A DNA stretch of 64,000 nt from Flavobacteriales bacterium (GTDB lineage: Bacteria > Bacteroidota > Bacteroidia > DT-38): the NCBI GenBank assembly GCA_013214205.1, contig JABSPQ010000127.1, forward strand, positions 1-64,000, in the 5' to 3' direction. Shown here piece by piece: positions 8,348-33,607 of this stretch. A model generated the notes under the pieces. The model saw nothing but the letters and a program-made list of their open reading frames with translations, was not told the DNA's origin and made no database searches. The translations under genes were made by a program, and so were the position numbers. Numbering within the stretch: the first letter of the stretch is position 1; every line of letters starts with the position of its first letter.

Positions 8348-10072
8348 CTATTCTTTTATCACTTTATAAGAAGATGTATTGTCTTCTATAATAACATTAA
8401 TAATGTAAATCCCCACTGGCCCGTCTAAAGTTACTTCTATGCTATCCGAACTTGAATAAGTTGATTTACTCACTTGGTTACCAAATAAGTCCAATACAAC
8501 CACTTCCGATTGACCTGATCCTTTGGGGATTGTAATAATTACCTTTCCAGTTGTAGGGTTAGGATAAATGGCATGGTTAAATGTCATTAAGTCATTAATG
8601 GCAGTGGCATTATCCGCTTCTCCAAGCCTTTGTATGAATAACGTACCACCAGTAGCGTCAGTAGTTAATTCATCAACAACAGAGGTAGGATCAACATCCA
8701 CTATAGAATTAAATTCCCCTGTATAGTATAAGTCATCACGATATCCAGCAGATAACATAACAATTTCCTCACCACCCAGGTTTAGCTGAAGGCTATAAGC
8801 TGTTTCGAAGGTGCCACTTGTATCAAATTTAGAGACAAAAGTATATCCGTCGTTATTAAATAATTGTAATGCGTTAATAGTAGGATCAAAGTCGCTGTTA
8901 CCAGTGAATTCTCCGCTAATGTACAAACTTGACCCGTTTGGTTCTACGGACATTGAGTTTATATTAATTCCCGCGTTTACACCATATTGGTTTACCCATT
9001 CAAAACCACCATTCTTATCATATTTAACTAAAAATGTTTCCCCTCCTACATATTGTAACGTATAACTTCCGCTGTCTAAATCATAGTCCGCAGTACCATA
9101 GACGTACCCACTGATATAAAAGCTACCAGATTTATCCATTGTAAACTTTTGCGGATAGACTTGTGTTGTAGACTCAAGCACTCTTCCCCAAATAAAGTCA
9201 CCAGCATCACTATATTTAGCAATAGTTGTAAAAGTATTATTGGATGATGTAAGAACTGAATCGTTAGTACTTGGATCATAATCCCCTGCTCCTTGGACGC
9301 TATTAACTAAAATCAAATCACCTTCGGGTGTCTGACCCATTCCAATGTTTGATTCACCCGAGCTACCACCTAATTGCTTTACCCATTGAAAATCTCCTGA
9401 AGCATCCATTTTCATTAAAAAGATATCAAAATCTCCAAACGCTGTTAGTACCCCTCCTGTTCCTAACGAGTCAAAATCTTGAGTTCCCCTAAAGACTCCA
9501 GATACATAAACTTCTTGATTATCGTTAATGACGATCTGCGATGGCGAAATATCATCATTCCCAATAGCGTCGAATAACTTAGTCCAAACTGGATCACCAT
9601 TAGCGGTAAGCTTTATAACGATCCCACTTGAGTTCCATGATTTAGTATCGTATAAATCCTCTGACGCAGTATGATCTAAATCAATTTCACCAGCGATGCT
9701 GCCTATAAAATACACATTCCCTGCCGAATCAAGTTTAATGTCTTTTGTCCAAAAATCACCGGTCGTTTCATAAAGTCTCGCCCACAGAAACTCTCCATCA
9801 ACATTGTATTTGCTGATCACTGCACTCCTGCCTTTTGTGATTGTTATCATAGAATCGTTTTCTGAAGGATCGAAGTCATACGTCCCAGGGTTCATGATAC
9901 TCGTAATGTACACGCTTCCATCAGGCGCTGCTATTATTGGTCCGGGATAGCAATATGAGGCCCCATTTGTATCAGAAAGTGCATGTGCCCAATTTAATGG
10001 AGGGATGCCTGTTCCTAAGGAATAAAATATCGTAACAAAAAACACTGATAACGTGAGTAGTAGTCTTTTCAT
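8348..10072 (-). CDS. T9SS-secreted protein with SBBP-type beta-propeller repeats
   Basis: A 574-residue exported protein. The N-terminal signal peptide is MKRLLLTLSVFFVTIFYSLG. The body consists of repeated units around 'W.k.l....d', 'gnvYisG.f.GtaDfD' and 'f.kYd..G.F.WvnqyG' (for example FIGSIAGEIDLDHTASEDLY, YISGVFRGTQDFDSLG, YISGYVYGTADYDLDSG). This is the SBBP/beta-propeller pattern with DxDxG-like acidic loops that probably bind calcium. The last ~75 residues (AIYPNPTTGKVIITIPKG... to YKVIKE) form a type A T9SS C-terminal sorting domain, so the protein should be released or anchored at the cell surface. The substrate is unknown. It is monocistronic, with its own terminator. Confidence 0.88.
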   Translation of the reverse strand: MKRLLLTLSVFFVTIFYSLGTGIPPLNWAHALSDTNGASYCYPGPIIAAPDGSVYITSIMNPGTYDFDPSENDSMITITKGRSAVISKYNVDGEFLWARLYETTGDFWTKDIKLDSAGNVYFIGSIAGEIDLDHTASEDLYDTKSWNSSGIVIKLTANGDPVWTKLFDAIGNDDISPSQIVINDNQEVYVSGVFRGTQDFDSLGTGGVLTAFGDFDIFLMKMDASGDFQWVKQLGGSSGESNIGMGQTPEGDLILVNSVQGAGDYDPSTNDSVLTSSNNTFTTIAKYSDAGDFIWGRVLESTTQVYPQKFTMDKSGSFYISGYVYGTADYDLDSGSYTLQYVGGETFLVKYDKNGGFEWVNQYGVNAGININSMSVEPNGSSLYISGEFTGNSDFDPTINALQLFNNDGYTFVSKFDTSGTFETAYSLQLNLGGEEIVMLSAGYRDDLYYTGEFNSIVDVDPTSVVDELTTDATGGTLFIQRLGEADNATAINDLMTFNHAIYPNPTTGKVIITIPKGSGQSEVVVLDLFGNQVSKSTYSSSDSIEVTLDGPVGIYIINVIIEDNTSSYKVIKE

Positions 10073-23849: not shown

Positions 23850-26800
23850 TTAATTGATCACAACCATTTTGGCTGCCAATACTTCTTTACTAGTTGTAGC
23901 ACTTACAATATAAGTACCAGCACTTAATCCAGCAACACTAAGATCAAAATTGTTGGTTCCCTTAATTAATGTTACTACATCCGTATAGATTGAAGTACCG
24001 CTTAAGCTATATACATTTAATCGAACACCTTTCTCGCTTTCACCAACAGTAATGGACACATTGGCTACATCCGTAACTGGGTTTGGATAGATAGAAAGAC
24101 TTGACTCGCTAGTTTCAACAGTTACCTTCTCTTCAACTCCAACAACATCTTGAGATGTATATACACCTCTACCATACGTACCAGCAACTAAGTTGCCATA
24201 TGTGTAAGAGAATTTCCAATATTGTTGGAATAAATCTGTTACAGGAACTTGAGGAATTATATCACCGTCAGTATTCCAGCTAGCTCCAGCATCATCTGTA
24301 CTATAAACGCCATACTCTGTACCAATTATTATTTCAGCACCAGTAGAATCGTTCAAGTTAATCAATACCGAATAAACAGGCATTGCCGGTAAATCAGACT
24401 GAATGGAAATAAACAAAGGAGTCGCGTCAGTAGCATTTTGAGACTCATATACATAATCCGCGTTACCATAATTACCTAAAGTAACCACAACATGCGACGA
24501 TGTTTTTCTGCTAGTAGCAATATCAGTAATATACCTTCCTTCGAAGTCGTGAACCAGTGATATCTTCAAATTCTCCACATCTTTTCCTCCTCTCAAAGTA
24601 AGTACTTTTGAAATCCGGTAGAGTCTTCCTCCCATTCCTACCCATATTTCATTCCCATCTGCAGAGAATCTTATTGCTGTTGCAGGATGCATTGCCGCCG
24701 TATCTAGCTCAACAGGCACATAATAATGCTGTTCGTAAATAGAACCAAATGCTACAGGAATTGTTTTTATATCTAATGGATCGTTAGCAATTAAAATGCT
24801 ACCATCTTCACCAGATACAGCAAACCTCGAATTAATTACATCCGTAAACCAAGCTGAATCTTTATCTCTGTTCGATAGGTCTTCTGTTAAGGTAGTCCAG
24901 TAGTAAATAAAATCGCCACTGCCAGCCATAACAGTATTACTTTTTAACTGAATGGTTGAACCAACTATTTCAGTAGGGTCTCCTGAAGTAAGATAAGGAA
25001 CACTATCAACGTTCGTTGTATCATACAGACTTTCCCATAAGTCCATTTTAACAACAGACGAATAAACCTCATCCTGAGTAATATCGATTACAGTAATCCC
25101 TCTGTTTTCAGAGCGATAAACTGTATTTATAACCTCGTAGCCATTGTAACCAAACTTAGTACCTGAATAAAAGATAATACTTGGGTCAATTTTAGAAATT
25201 ACAACATCTCCACCACTCATAACTTCTCCTAGGTCGGTATATAGCTGCGTTCCTCGATTAGGGTTTATGTCGAAACCAGAATTGTATATAACACCATTTC
25301 CTACGGTACTCATAAGTAACTCACCATCAACGTCCATCTCTGCACCTAGCATTTGTGTGCTCACATAGTTTGCATTTTGTTTTGAGAATGAACTACCACC
25401 ATTTCTAGTATTGTATATCCCTGCATCCGTTGCTATGTAAAAGGTTTTAGTATTTGTTGGATGGTATACTATATCATGAATTCCCGTTGATACGTATAAT
25501 GGATCATTCAACTCTAATTCTGCTGATGACACTTTGTTCCAATTTTCATCAAAAGTCCATTTCCAAATATCTAAACCTGCAACCAATATATTTTCTCTAT
25601 CATTTGGATTAACAACAATTGTATTTGCATACATACCGTCGAATAATGGATAAAATTGAGATTGAGAAAGTCCTCCAGGGCCTATTAGATCCCATCTTGC
25701 TCCTTTATCAGTAGATTGGTAAACACCTTCTAACAAATATTTTTCCTCAGTATCTCTTTCCTCTGCGGTATAGGCAACTGATGCATAAACATAATTAGGA
25801 TCAGAAGGCGCAATAGCTACTTCAATTCTACCAACACCCTTAATTGGTAGCAAGTTACTCTCAAAATCATTTGAACGTTGTACATATGTACCTGGATCTC
25901 CGTTAGCAGAGGTAAAGCATACATTGCCTACAATGGCAATTACCGAACCATCACTTCCAACTTCAACGTCTGTAGCTCGAGCAACAGAATCAGAATCAAA
26001 AGAAACAGCATCTAATCCAGTTACATTACCAATTAGTGTTTCAAATGTGCCAGAAAGTCCAGAAACATTTGCTGGATCAGAGAAATAACTTGATCCTAAA
26101 TTAACAGAAGTAATATTGTCTATTACGGTATACCTATTTCCTGTTAAACCACAACTTGCGTTTTCATGTGTTGTTTCCTGATCAGCTTCGAAGTCTCCTG
26201 CTGGAACTGCCTCTGAAATCACTTCATATATCGCATCAAGGTCCGATGGCTTATCAACAGTAGGCGCTTCAGATTCGAAAGTACCACCTTGAGTACTAGA
26301 AGTAAAATAAATAGAAGTTCCACTTCTGTTAGCTGTTATGTTTTGCTTATTCCAAGCATCTTTAGCATTAAGATCCTTTTTAATAAATTTATTTATCTTC
26401 TCAATCAATGTTGGTGCGTCAGCCTTGTTTTCCCATTTAAACGTTGTTAAACTATACTTTGATCCAACATTCAATATAACTTTGTCAATCCCCGGTGTTA
26501 AGTCACCAACCATATGATATACAACTTGTTTAGACAATGGGAAATTAGGAACCAAAGTGGTAGCAAGTACCTCCAATTCGCCACTTTGAGATGTTAACAA
26601 ACCATCAAATCCAGGAAAATCATTCCCTGGTACTTTAGCAGTAAATGTTATGAGGCTGTCCTCTTGTGTCATTATAATACCTTCTACAGTATCTAGTTTA
26701 GCTTTGTAATCAGCATAGAACTTTTCTGCAATTTCGGTAACCGAACCATTATCGAGAAATTTATACTTATCCTTGTTCATATAAAGTGTTACTTCACCCA

Positions 26801-28835
26801 AATTTCCAGTAACTACATATTCAACCACTTTAGCCCTTGCTTCCAAAACTTCGGTTGAAGCAGTAAACCCTACTCCTGCTGTTGTAGAAGTTAAAGTCAA
26901 TACTGGACCAACAGATGAAACAGAAACACCTTTTTCATATAATTCAATAAATTTCTCTGTAACAAAGTCTGCAAGAGATTGTTTTATATCTCCATTTTTA
27001 AGTGCAATAAAATATGCATCTTCTATTGTATCAGATGTGATTAATGTTAACAATACAGCTCCACCCATACCGTCAAAACTGAATACTTCTTCTTGTTTAG
27101 AGTATCCGCTATCATTAATCATTGTGTATGTTGTAAACGGATCACCCGCAGTAATAGCTGTTAATGTAATTACACTATCTGTAGCCGTAACAGCAACTGA
27201 ACCATCTATTATTGGATTTGCAGCTGCAAAGTTTGCCAATGTAGTAGCAAGGTCTGTATCAAAATCAATTGAATAATCTGTACCGTTAACAGTTATATGT
27301 CCTTTACCGCAAGTCCCTTCAATATGATGCTCTACAATTTGTGCAACTGGAGTTTCTTGCACCAACGTACTAGTAAATACCACACCAATTTCTCGAGAAG
27401 TTAAAATTATTGTATCTCCACTAACTGATAGATCCGTATTGGTATAACTGGAAATATTCGCTGAATCAGTATCGAAAAAATTTGAAACCGTAGTTGCAAG
27501 GTCTGTATCGTATACTACTCTAAATATCGAACTGTCAGTAACACTATTAAAAATGGTAAGTGTTGCTGAACCCGAGTCTCCTGTTAGTACATATTTATCA
27601 ACTTGATTAACACTACCAACTGCATTATTAATTGAATCTATCGTAAATGGCTCGCCTTCTTCCGCGGCAGTTAAAATAATTACGCCTGTATCAGCAGTTA
27701 CTTCAATTTTCCCCATTAACCCAGTTAGCCCTGCTGCGTTTGCTGTAGCAAAATCATCGGCACTCGTAGCCAAATCACCATTAAAAGTTGCTGTATATAT
27801 TGTATCATTAATATAAAAATTTGCTGTTCCTTCAGTTCCAGTTAATGTTATTGCAGTAACCTGTTTTGTTCCCCCATCAAAATTATCAAAAATGACAGCT
27901 GGGTCAGTTCCACTTAAATCACTAAATATTAAACTTTCACCAATATTTGCAACACCTATATTGTCATCTGCTTCAAGATCTGCACCAAATGCAATAACAA
28001 AATTTGCTGCTGTTGTTTCTAGATCAGTATCAAATGTATGTGTATAAGGTGTTCCACTTCCAACTTGCAATGTCATAGAACCACCCGTTCCAATTAAAGT
28101 TAATGTAGTTGAGTTGATTGCGTTAGTCCAAGAATCACCGCCATCAGAAGAAACCATTAGACCATGATGAGTTGCTGCATAAATCCTTTCAGAGTTAGAT
28201 GGATCTGCTGCCATTTCGTTTACATATTGCCAAGCTTCTTGATCTCCTGTTGTCCAAGTAGAAGCAAGTTGAGTAAATGTAGCTCCGTTGTCTTCCGATT
28301 TAAAAACACCTTGTCCTGGCAAACCTGTTTCACCATCACCCATTGGGTACATAAAGCTTTCTCCCGTTCCTACATAAATATCGTTGTCTGCACCTTGTGT
28401 AATGCTTGCAATGGCCAAACTCGACATATTATCGGCAGCAGGCTCCCAAGTTGTTCCTCCTGTTTGAGAAACAAATAGGCCACCACTAACTGATCCTGCA
28501 AACATTCTTGAAGAATTACTTTGGTCGTATAAAATGCTTCTGGTTCTTCCTCCAAAGTTATTTGGCCCTCTAGATTCCCAAGTTAAGTTTAAACTCTTAC
28601 GAATAGAACGTCTACTATTCGTTCTAGCCTTATCCACATCAGCTTTATCAATTTTTCCAGTTATCTGATTCTTACGAACATCAAACAAAAAACTTTCTGA
28701 AGTAGCAGACTTTGATTCCTTTTCTTTTAAAGGTTTGTTGCCAAATCGTGGATCTTGATGGAGTTTAAACGCGAATGTTACAAAGACAAATAACACTCCT
28801 ATTACTCCGATAATTACACTTAAATTCTTTCTCAT
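23850..28835 (-). CDS. Giant T9SS-secreted BNR-propeller protein with internal tandem repeats
   Basis: 1661 residues. The N-terminal signal anchor is MRKNLSVIIGVIGVLFVFVT. A beta-propeller of sortilin/BNR type begins at ~residue 90 (GGLFVSQTGGTTWEPAADNM, GVFKSEDNGATF, GLMVSSDGGDSWT). It is interrupted by ~625 residues of about seven degenerate ~85-residue repeats (residues ~242-868) and then resumes (GVYQSTDKGARWDLIGPGGL, IYNTRNGGSSF, GVYSTDDAGASWN). The C-terminus (SIYPNPVTDVANVSITVGES to KMVVIN) is a type A T9SS sorting domain, so the protein is surface-exposed or released. The gene is monocistronic with a hairpin terminator. Binding or adhesion is a plausible role but unproven. Confidence 0.9.
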   Translation of the reverse strand: MRKNLSVIIGVIGVLFVFVTFAFKLHQDPRFGNKPLKEKESKSATSESFLFDVRKNQITGKIDKADVDKARTNSRRSIRKSLNLTWESRGPNNFGGRTRSILYDQSNSSRMFAGSVSGGLFVSQTGGTTWEPAADNMSSLAIASITQGADNDIYVGTGESFMYPMGDGETGLPGQGVFKSEDNGATFTQLASTWTTGDQEAWQYVNEMAADPSNSERIYAATHHGLMVSSDGGDSWTNAINSTTLTLIGTGGSMTLQVGSGTPYTHTFDTDLETTAANFVIAFGADLEADDNIGVANIGESLIFSDLSGTDPAVIFDNFDGGTKQVTAITLTGTEGTANFYINDTIYTATFNGDLATSADDFATANAAGLTGLMGKIEVTADTGVIILTAAEEGEPFTIDSINNAVGSVNQVDKYVLTGDSGSATLTIFNSVTDSSIFRVVYDTDLATTVSNFFDTDSANISSYTNTDLSVSGDTIILTSREIGVVFTSTLVQETPVAQIVEHHIEGTCGKGHITVNGTDYSIDFDTDLATTLANFAAANPIIDGSVAVTATDSVITLTAITAGDPFTTYTMINDSGYSKQEEVFSFDGMGGAVLLTLITSDTIEDAYFIALKNGDIKQSLADFVTEKFIELYEKGVSVSSVGPVLTLTSTTAGVGFTASTEVLEARAKVVEYVVTGNLGEVTLYMNKDKYKFLDNGSVTEIAEKFYADYKAKLDTVEGIIMTQEDSLITFTAKVPGNDFPGFDGLLTSQSGELEVLATTLVPNFPLSKQVVYHMVGDLTPGIDKVILNVGSKYSLTTFKWENKADAPTLIEKINKFIKKDLNAKDAWNKQNITANRSGTSIYFTSSTQGGTFESEAPTVDKPSDLDAIYEVISEAVPAGDFEADQETTHENASCGLTGNRYTVIDNITSVNLGSSYFSDPANVSGLSGTFETLIGNVTGLDAVSFDSDSVARATDVEVGSDGSVIAIVGNVCFTSANGDPGTYVQRSNDFESNLLPIKGVGRIEVAIAPSDPNYVYASVAYTAEERDTEEKYLLEGVYQSTDKGARWDLIGPGGLSQSQFYPLFDGMYANTIVVNPNDRENILVAGLDIWKWTFDENWNKVSSAELELNDPLYVSTGIHDIVYHPTNTKTFYIATDAGIYNTRNGGSSFSKQNANYVSTQMLGAEMDVDGELLMSTVGNGVIYNSGFDINPNRGTQLYTDLGEVMSGGDVVISKIDPSIIFYSGTKFGYNGYEVINTVYRSENRGITVIDITQDEVYSSVVKMDLWESLYDTTNVDSVPYLTSGDPTEIVGSTIQLKSNTVMAGSGDFIYYWTTLTEDLSNRDKDSAWFTDVINSRFAVSGEDGSILIANDPLDIKTIPVAFGSIYEQHYYVPVELDTAAMHPATAIRFSADGNEIWVGMGGRLYRISKVLTLRGGKDVENLKISLVHDFEGRYITDIATSRKTSSHVVVTLGNYGNADYVYESQNATDATPLFISIQSDLPAMPVYSVLINLNDSTGAEIIIGTEYGVYSTDDAGASWNTDGDIIPQVPVTDLFQQYWKFSYTYGNLVAGTYGRGVYTSQDVVGVEEKVTVETSESSLSIYPNPVTDVANVSITVGESEKGVRLNVYSLSGTSIYTDVVTLIKGTNNFDLSVAGLSAGTYIVSATTSKEVLAAKMVVIN
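26230..28110 (-). repeat. About seven degenerate ~85-codon repeats inside the T9SS gene
   Basis: At protein level each unit follows a 'v..y.vtG..G.a.l.in...Y...fdtDLattaanFa......l....v.vt...d.i.LTa...G.pFt' pattern. Examples are HTFDTDLETTAANFVIAFGA, ATFNGDLATSADDFATANAA, VVYDTDLATTVSNFFDTDSA and IDFDTDLATTLANFAAANPI, with increasingly divergent copies towards the C-terminal end. DNA identity is low, so this is old duplication and not a recombining array. Confidence 0.8.
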
Positions 28836-31882: not shown

Positions 31883-33607
31883 TTGACCAGGTCGTTTTAT
31901 ACTGCTGTTTTAATATTGGGCTTAAGCTTCTCTTTGTTTTCGAAAGACGACTTCAAGCTCACCATGCACATAAACGACTCTACAATCAATTTATCCAACA
32001 TCAAGAGTTTAGAAACTCCAAAAACAAAATTTAATAACCCCAAACAACGACTGAGCTACCTAAGATCAATCAGGTCGGAATTGATTGCCTCTGGATACTT
32101 GGGTGCTTATTTTATGCACGAAAAGATGGACAGTCTTTTACTGGAAACCACCCTATACCCCGGCTTTCAATACAAAGTTGCACAGTTAGGCCCAGGCAAT
32201 ATTAATGAAGGATTATTGAGCAAAATAGGATTCAGAGAGAAGCTTTACGCCAATAAGCCTTTCAATCAGCTTGAGGTTAAAAAGTTGATTGAAAAAATCT
32301 TGGTGCAATACGAAGACAGCGGCTACCCTTTTGCCTCGGTGGCAATGGAAAACATTTCGATTAGTTCGGATACAATTAGTGCAACACTCCATGTAGATCG
32401 AAAAAGAGAAATCGTAATCGATTCGGTTATAATTAAGGGTGATGCGGATATTGAGTACATATACATCACCAAGTACCTTGGGCTTAAAACTGGCGACCAG
32501 TATAGCGAAGCGGTAATTAAAAACATCAAGCCCAAACTCAACGAATTGCCTTTTATAAAAACGATTAAACCTTCTGTTGTACGTTTTACAGAAGACAAAA
32601 CGGAAATAATTTTGTATCTAGAAGATAAAAAGGCAAGTAAATTCAATGGAATCATAGGCTTTTTACCCAATAGTGAAACGAAAAAACTAACTGTTACCGG
32701 CGACGTTTTTCTTAAGTTAAACAACTCTCTTGGCAAAGGAGAATTGATTGAATTTAACTGGAGATCGCTCCAACCAAGAACATCCGATCTAACAACAAAA
32801 TTTAACTACCCATTTATTTTTAAGTCGCCATTTGGAATTGATTTAAACTTTAAACTGTACAAAAAAGACACTTTATTTATTACAACAGATTATCAACTAG
32901 GCGTGGAATATCTACTAAAAGGAGGTAATTATTTTAAAGTTTTTTGGGACAGAAAGAAAACTTCGCTGCTGAATGATCAAGATGAAAATTCGAGCGATTT
33001 ATATGCCAACACCGATTTTACTGTGTATGGTCTTGGAATGCGAAAAGAGAAGCTGGATTACCGGATTAATCCAAGAAAGGGCTATTCCATAGAAGGAGAA
33101 GTTGGTGTTGGAAGAAGAAAAGAAAAGGCTTTGATTAATGGCGATGAAGACCCCAAACCGAATACTCAATTTAAAACAAAAGGGAATTTGCATGTATTTA
33201 TTCCAATTAAAGCAAGAAGTACAATAATGATGCGAATCAACGGGGCATATTTATCAAGTGATAAAAATTACGACAACGAGATGTTCCGAATAGGTGGTCT
33301 TAAAACCTTTAGAGGATTCGATGAAGAAACTATTTTAGCATCTTCGTATGCCATTTTTTCTTTAGAATATAGAATCCTGTTGGAGCAAAATTCCAACGTT
33401 TATCTATTTACCGATGTTGGTTGGTTTGAGTATAAAAGTGTAAATAAAGAATTTAGAGATGATATTCCTTATGGGTTTGGCGCGGGCATGAATTTTCAAA
33501 CCAAAGCAGGAATATTTAGCGTAAACTATGCACTGGGGGCTCAACTAAACAATCCTATCTTGTTTAAATCGGCAAAACTTCATTTCGGGATTATAAACTA
33601 TTTCTAG
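31883..33607 (+). CDS. BamA/TamA-family outer-membrane protein
   Basis: 574 residues. A TTG at 31883 is the only start that keeps a signal peptide (MTRSFYTAVLILGLSFSLFS). Residues ~85-250 contain POTRA-like segments (FNQLEVKKLIEKILVQYEDS, GYPFASVAMENISI). The rest is a beta-barrel with the RGFDEETILASSYAIFSLEY strand typical of Omp85 proteins and a terminal aromatic (LHFGIINYF). It is smaller than the true BamA (~850 residues), so it is an accessory Omp85/TamA-like member. It precedes rmuC by 50 bp. Confidence 0.82.
   Translation: MTRSFYTAVLILGLSFSLFSKDDFKLTMHINDSTINLSNIKSLETPKTKFNNPKQRLSYLRSIRSELIASGYLGAYFMHEKMDSLLLETTLYPGFQYKVAQLGPGNINEGLLSKIGFREKLYANKPFNQLEVKKLIEKILVQYEDSGYPFASVAMENISISSDTISATLHVDRKREIVIDSVIIKGDADIEYIYITKYLGLKTGDQYSEAVIKNIKPKLNELPFIKTIKPSVVRFTEDKTEIILYLEDKKASKFNGIIGFLPNSETKKLTVTGDVFLKLNNSLGKGELIEFNWRSLQPRTSDLTTKFNYPFIFKSPFGIDLNFKLYKKDTLFITTDYQLGVEYLLKGGNYFKVFWDRKKTSLLNDQDENSSDLYANTDFTVYGLGMRKEKLDYRINPRKGYSIEGEVGVGRRKEKALINGDEDPKPNTQFKTKGNLHVFIPIKARSTIMMRINGAYLSSDKNYDNEMFRIGGLKTFRGFDEETILASSYAIFSLEYRILLEQNSNVYLFTDVGWFEYKSVNKEFRDDIPYGFGAGMNFQTKAGIFSVNYALGAQLNNPILFKSAKLHFGIINYF

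Follow-up and report, generated by a model that had tools for sequence, protein, structure and literature searches.

At positions 23850 to 28835 of the window (the whole stretch of 64,000 nucleotides of Flavobacteriales DNA analysed here), a gene encodes a 1661-amino-acid-residue protein in which a long block of repeats separates two parts of a β-propeller. The question raised by this locus is what the repeats are, whether they truly interrupt one propeller, where they came from, and what an array of them might do in a protein with a type IX system (T9SS) sorting tail. The parts of the gene outside the repeats are as follows.

23850..28835, minus strand: whole gene, T9SS propeller with inserted module array, 1661 aa
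28767..28835, minus strand: N-terminal hydrophobic export signal, residues 1-23 (read from the sequence, no predictor used)
28113..28628, minus strand: N-terminal part of the propeller, residues 70-241 (homologues at 40-50% identity, PDB 3b7f, Asp-box scan)
25995..26195, minus strand: final stretch of the insert beyond the repeats, residues 881-947 (missing from uninterrupted homologues)
24156..25994, minus strand: C-terminal part of the propeller, residues 948-1560 (homology to uninterrupted propellers)
23859..24092, minus strand: T9SS type A sorting domain, residues 1582-1659 (PF18962, TIGR04183)

The protein ends, as a sequence-only reading of the window had proposed, in a T9SS tail. Both models of the type A sorting domain matched residues 1582-1659 above their curated cut-offs, PF18962 of Pfam with 37.4 bits (cut-off 27, E 3e-9) and TIGR04183 with 32.8 bits (cut-off 23, E 5e-8), as expected of a type A cargo protein. 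Sorting tail aside, the protein is single-copy in its own genome, and a scan of the genome_contigs collection with the whole protein gave zero confirmed relatives.

Besides the sorting tail, the searched libraries gave signals for two propellers only. One was the F510_1955-type glycosylhydrolase (NF045728), to which the protein cannot be assigned because it scored 82.8 bits against an equivalog cut-off of 175; the other was the BNR propeller 3b7f in the PDB (E 5e-5). The latter match, the Asp-box-like motifs and many homologues identify the protein as a BNR/sortilin-like propeller. Relatives of the propeller were present in 45 of the 60 related genomes searched. In several genomes the uninterrupted relatives occur in neighbouring or multiple copies (G007:C30, G036:C239, G019).

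Homologues from about twenty families aligned to both flanks of the repeat block, until residue ~240 and again from ~948-957. At the same site most of them have a gap of a few to ~30 residues, compared with ~706 residues (242-947) here, and these uninterrupted T9SS BNR propellers of the class are roughly 30-50% identical to the flanks. Since about twenty families have the same propeller with a short loop at this site, the block is a genuine insertion into one fold, and the two flanks are not independent complete propellers; the N-terminal flank (70-241) would in any case be too short to form a complete propeller alone. In the Asp-box scan the insert begins directly past the Asp-box SSDGGDSW (residue 229), so that it probably sits in the connection between two blades. 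A domain can also sit between propeller blades in the muzzle protein gp44 of crAss001, where the inserted domain is Ig-like (PMC10172136), unlike the module described here.

Seven units of ~85 residues occupy residues 242-880, slightly more than the ~242-868 first read from the sequence, and the inserted stretch as a whole reaches ~947, with residues 881-947 extra beyond the repeats. The units, given here as R1 to R7 in the order of the protein, are very divergent outside their core residues.

27852..28112, minus strand: R1, residues 242-328 (viral-only profile 45 bits; high local pLDDT in the four-repeat model)
27597..27851, minus strand: R2, residues 329-413, the closest to phage modules (viral-only profile 52 bits; AlphaFold model)
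27330..27596, minus strand: R3, residues 414-502 (viral-only profile 17 bits; position conserved in the sister species)
27087..27329, minus strand: R4, residues 503-583 (viral-only profile 36 bits)
26820..27086, minus strand: R5, residues 584-672, divergent (ortholog at the same position, E 2e-18; viral-only profile 11.5 bits)
26520..26819, minus strand: R6, residues 673-772, divergent (ortholog at the same position, E 2e-20; viral-only profile 9.7 bits)
26196..26519, minus strand: R7, residues 773-880, the most divergent (70 bits with family profile A1)

The profile built from viral modules alone was judged against 500 shuffles of the protein, which reached a top score of 11.2 bits. R1-R4 beat all 500 shuffles and so match the phage module; R5 stands barely over and R6 under the shuffle maximum, and R7 scored below zero with this profile and was not found by it. 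R5 and R6 are counted as members mainly for their conserved position in the ortholog of a sister species (G001), and R7 only by profile A1, which contains R7. The ortholog adjoins lipA, like the window gene, and is 44% identical across the aligned 779 residues, up to the end of its contig. Each of R1-R6 matched the ortholog best at the corresponding position, and the array is therefore older than the split from the sister species.

The repeat had been described as a domain that could not be named, and the libraries bear this out: none of the Pfam, NCBIfam or PHROG models matched it. BACON (PF13004) and other Pfam Ig-like domains were absent from the whole protein and from 13 repeats, a literature search on the motif string found no paper, and comparison of the module with the PDB by sequence gave chance-level matches only.

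Structure prediction of one repeat, R2, gave a confident alpha+beta fold (AlphaFold, 53 aligned rows, pLDDT 89.5, pTM 0.81) with the topology three strands, helix, three strands (beta3-alpha-beta3). In a model of four repeats R1 and R2 retained the fold and R3-R4 were weak; the pTM of just 0.40 means that the arrangement of the repeats is not fixed by the model. The long beta-rich arm suggested by the sequence-only reading is thus not borne out. Among the best fifteen PDB matches of the fold (Foldseek) all were phage tail, sheath, baseplate or portal-tail entries, with marginal scores (E 0.002 and above, TM by query 0.27-0.64), and the T7 tail entry 7ey9 (7ey9_s) stood lower in the list with a TM by query of 0.69. 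A viral structure library agreed with this result, with one match at 4e-4. The similarity to tail sheath, baseplate and T7-type nozzle domains (9cba, 8kee, 9khy, 8fop, 9cuy, 8i4m, 7ey9) extends over most of the module, but the Foldseek E-values are marginal, and by sequence hhalign, run against a 61-residue piece of a single sheath protein, gave a probability of only 6.8. Since sequence gives no support for homology, we treat this resemblance as a likeness of fold only.

Relatives of the repeat were found in phages. A pattern scan of IMG/VR gave 60 viral loci; it was seeded with conserved peptides and so is biased toward consensus-like copies. Profile A1 was too divergent for a viral scan. The 58 viral modules obtained after extraction, mostly one per protein, sit in more than 15 groups of host proteins that are unrelated outside the module, as counted by simple BLAST clustering with the module masked. 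The viral status of these contigs is that given by the collection, and matches to phage families back it for part of the host proteins. The carriers include a crAss-like structural protein (phrog_32037), a virion structural protein (phrog_37948), a head-tail adaptor (phrog_442), which also matches the gp6-like connector PF05135, and a crAss-type auxiliary capsid protein (PF25650). In the crAss-like structural protein the module is cleanly inserted: both flanks align with the proteins of Cellulophaga phage phi17:2 and csAssE-Sib, in which the module is missing. The domain is therefore not peculiar to the window protein: its family is widespread in phage virion proteins, where the modules are mostly inserted singly. 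Of the sequence-only reading, the interruption of one propeller, the T9SS tail and the lack of a library name for the repeat are supported; what sets this protein apart is only its sevenfold array within a T9SS propeller. When the modules were compared with INPHARED phages and PLSDB plasmids by tblastn there were no matches, an uninformative result, as the low-complexity (SEG) filter drops most known carriers (the same query, SEG-filtered, recovered only 24 of the 62 that it recovers unfiltered).

A few viral proteins carry more than one module. At locus L101 (3306-10241) a 2312-aa virion structural protein (phrog_37948) has two modules ~150 residues apart, and phage proteins at L105, L128, L131 and L133 have two or three close modules and, among viral proteins, come closest to the window array.

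In cells the module is very rare. It was found in 4 of 395 sampled genomes of the class, namely in the window genus and in two genomes with ArrA-type molybdoenzymes, and the sample of the phylum gave no further carriers and one false match only. Weak hits in four genomes were not counted as carriers: G083 encodes another kind of repeat protein, the match in G678 is broken by an internal stop, and the open frames at the other two resemble a histidine kinase (G278) and an LD-carboxypeptidase (G626). In the two genomes outside the window genus, profile A1 found a single copy each, inside a molybdoenzyme with a twin-arginine-type leader. When this enzyme was compared with the arsenate respiratory reductase ArrA (6cz7), the alignment ran to query residue 661 and resumed at 771; over this stretch the chain of 6cz7 runs only from 638 to 645, so that the module lies in ~100 residues that the query has in addition. 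The insertion is read against the solved ArrA structure because no close uninserted relative was found among 59 genomes. The Fe-S protein encoded next to this enzyme is similar to ArrB, at a score under the curated cut-off, and has a T9SS tail.

Taken together, we favour, with some reserve, the reading that the window protein is a T9SS surface propeller carrying a tandem array of a phage-virion decoration module, which likely provides weak multivalent contact and bulk. The protein would be exported by the type IX system to the cell surface, a location suggested by its tail, with about seven copies of the module following the Asp-box blade near residue 240. On the cell envelope the array would most likely serve for weak multivalent contact, probably with glycans or other surface polymers, and such putative multivalent adhesion is plausible; the array would also add bulk, lifting or shielding the propeller.

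The modules could instead bind nothing, the array being an inert spacer or filler that alters distance or crowding around the propeller. We regard this as doubtful. The high divergence of the repeats except at core residues would suit selection for folding only, and a bacterial BACON structure has been interpreted as a linker and not as a binder (PMC6949934), but a spacer alone does not predict that the family recurs singly in many unrelated virion proteins.

As to origin, the module appears to be mainly a component of phage virions, inserted singly in head, connector and tail proteins. An ancestor of the window genus may have acquired it by exchange with phages or from a common pool, and the acquired module would then have multiplied in this lineage. 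A tree of 71 modules had few columns and placed the cellular repeats on long branches, so that a phage origin is not proven by it. The opposite direction, with modules that arose in cells and passed from surface proteins of Bacteroidota into phages, seems unlikely to us. The most divergent copies are indeed cellular and the midpoint-rooted tree puts some of them at the base; however, midpoint rooting is unreliable with long branches, and the handful of cellular carriers in the class sample compares poorly with the viral loci of a single scan. We give little credence to a further reading, in which an undescribed alpha+beta family moves between phage and host, both share a surface ligand, and the seven-copy array competes with, mimics or shields against phages.

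In at least three unrelated protein frameworks the module is precisely inserted, which might also suggest a mobile DNA element with in-frame insertion into genes, as opposed to a protein domain spread by ordinary recombination. This is very improbable and was rejected for the low DNA identity between modules: codon-aligned identity has a median of 0.49 and stays under about 0.70 when modules from different host-protein groups are compared. Nor do the inserts have the same edges, and a shared terminal DNA sequence was not seen. An assembly chimera of a phage gene and a bacterial gene, which the 464 contigs of the source assembly and the phage-like module might bring to mind, is refuted by the sister-species ortholog, with its first six repeats in the same propeller by lipA, and the gene is a single open frame without stops.

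The favoured reading, a surface propeller with an array of virion modules, has a documented parallel in the BACON domains, which crAss-like phages have in common with surface proteins of Bacteroidota; they too form tandem arrays and have been transferred horizontally (PMC6949934). Like the window module, BACON (PF13004) is a domain of ~90 residues that occurs singly and in tandem in Bacteroidota surface proteins and their phages, with a suspected role in surface contact. Unlike BACON, an all-beta Ig-like sandwich, the window module is alpha+beta with a central helix and has no Pfam match, and its long array is in a cell protein whereas the phages mostly have single copies. Another parallel is the Ig-like domains of phage structural proteins (Fraser et al. 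2006, as cited in PMC6949934), likewise promiscuous extra domains in unrelated virion proteins and patchy among homologues; the window module differs from them in fold and sequence. The module would thus be a further decoration domain shared by phages and hosts, beside BACON and Ig-like domains and of a different fold. Relatives are now at hand for a repeat that no searched family library recognises. They show a single small module in use on the capsid, connector and tail proteins of environmental phages and also on host surface proteins, where it is rare. The compact unit R1-R2 makes the ligand directly testable.

Three further observations concern the neighbourhood and the other cellular carriers. 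At locus L063 (3006-7040, JACPRZ) an ArrA-type molybdoenzyme with one module is followed by the ArrB-like Fe-S protein with a T9SS tail; in this MAG of a groundwater Bacteroidota the pair may form a respiratory reductase at the cell surface, and its function as an arsenate reductase is putative, with scores below curated cut-offs. The window encodes a second T9SS-tailed protein (8348-10072, 574 aa), in which the tail is the sole Pfam match at E 1e-4. Near the propeller gene, at 31883-33607 of the window, lies a gene for a POTRA and ShlB/FhaC-like protein.
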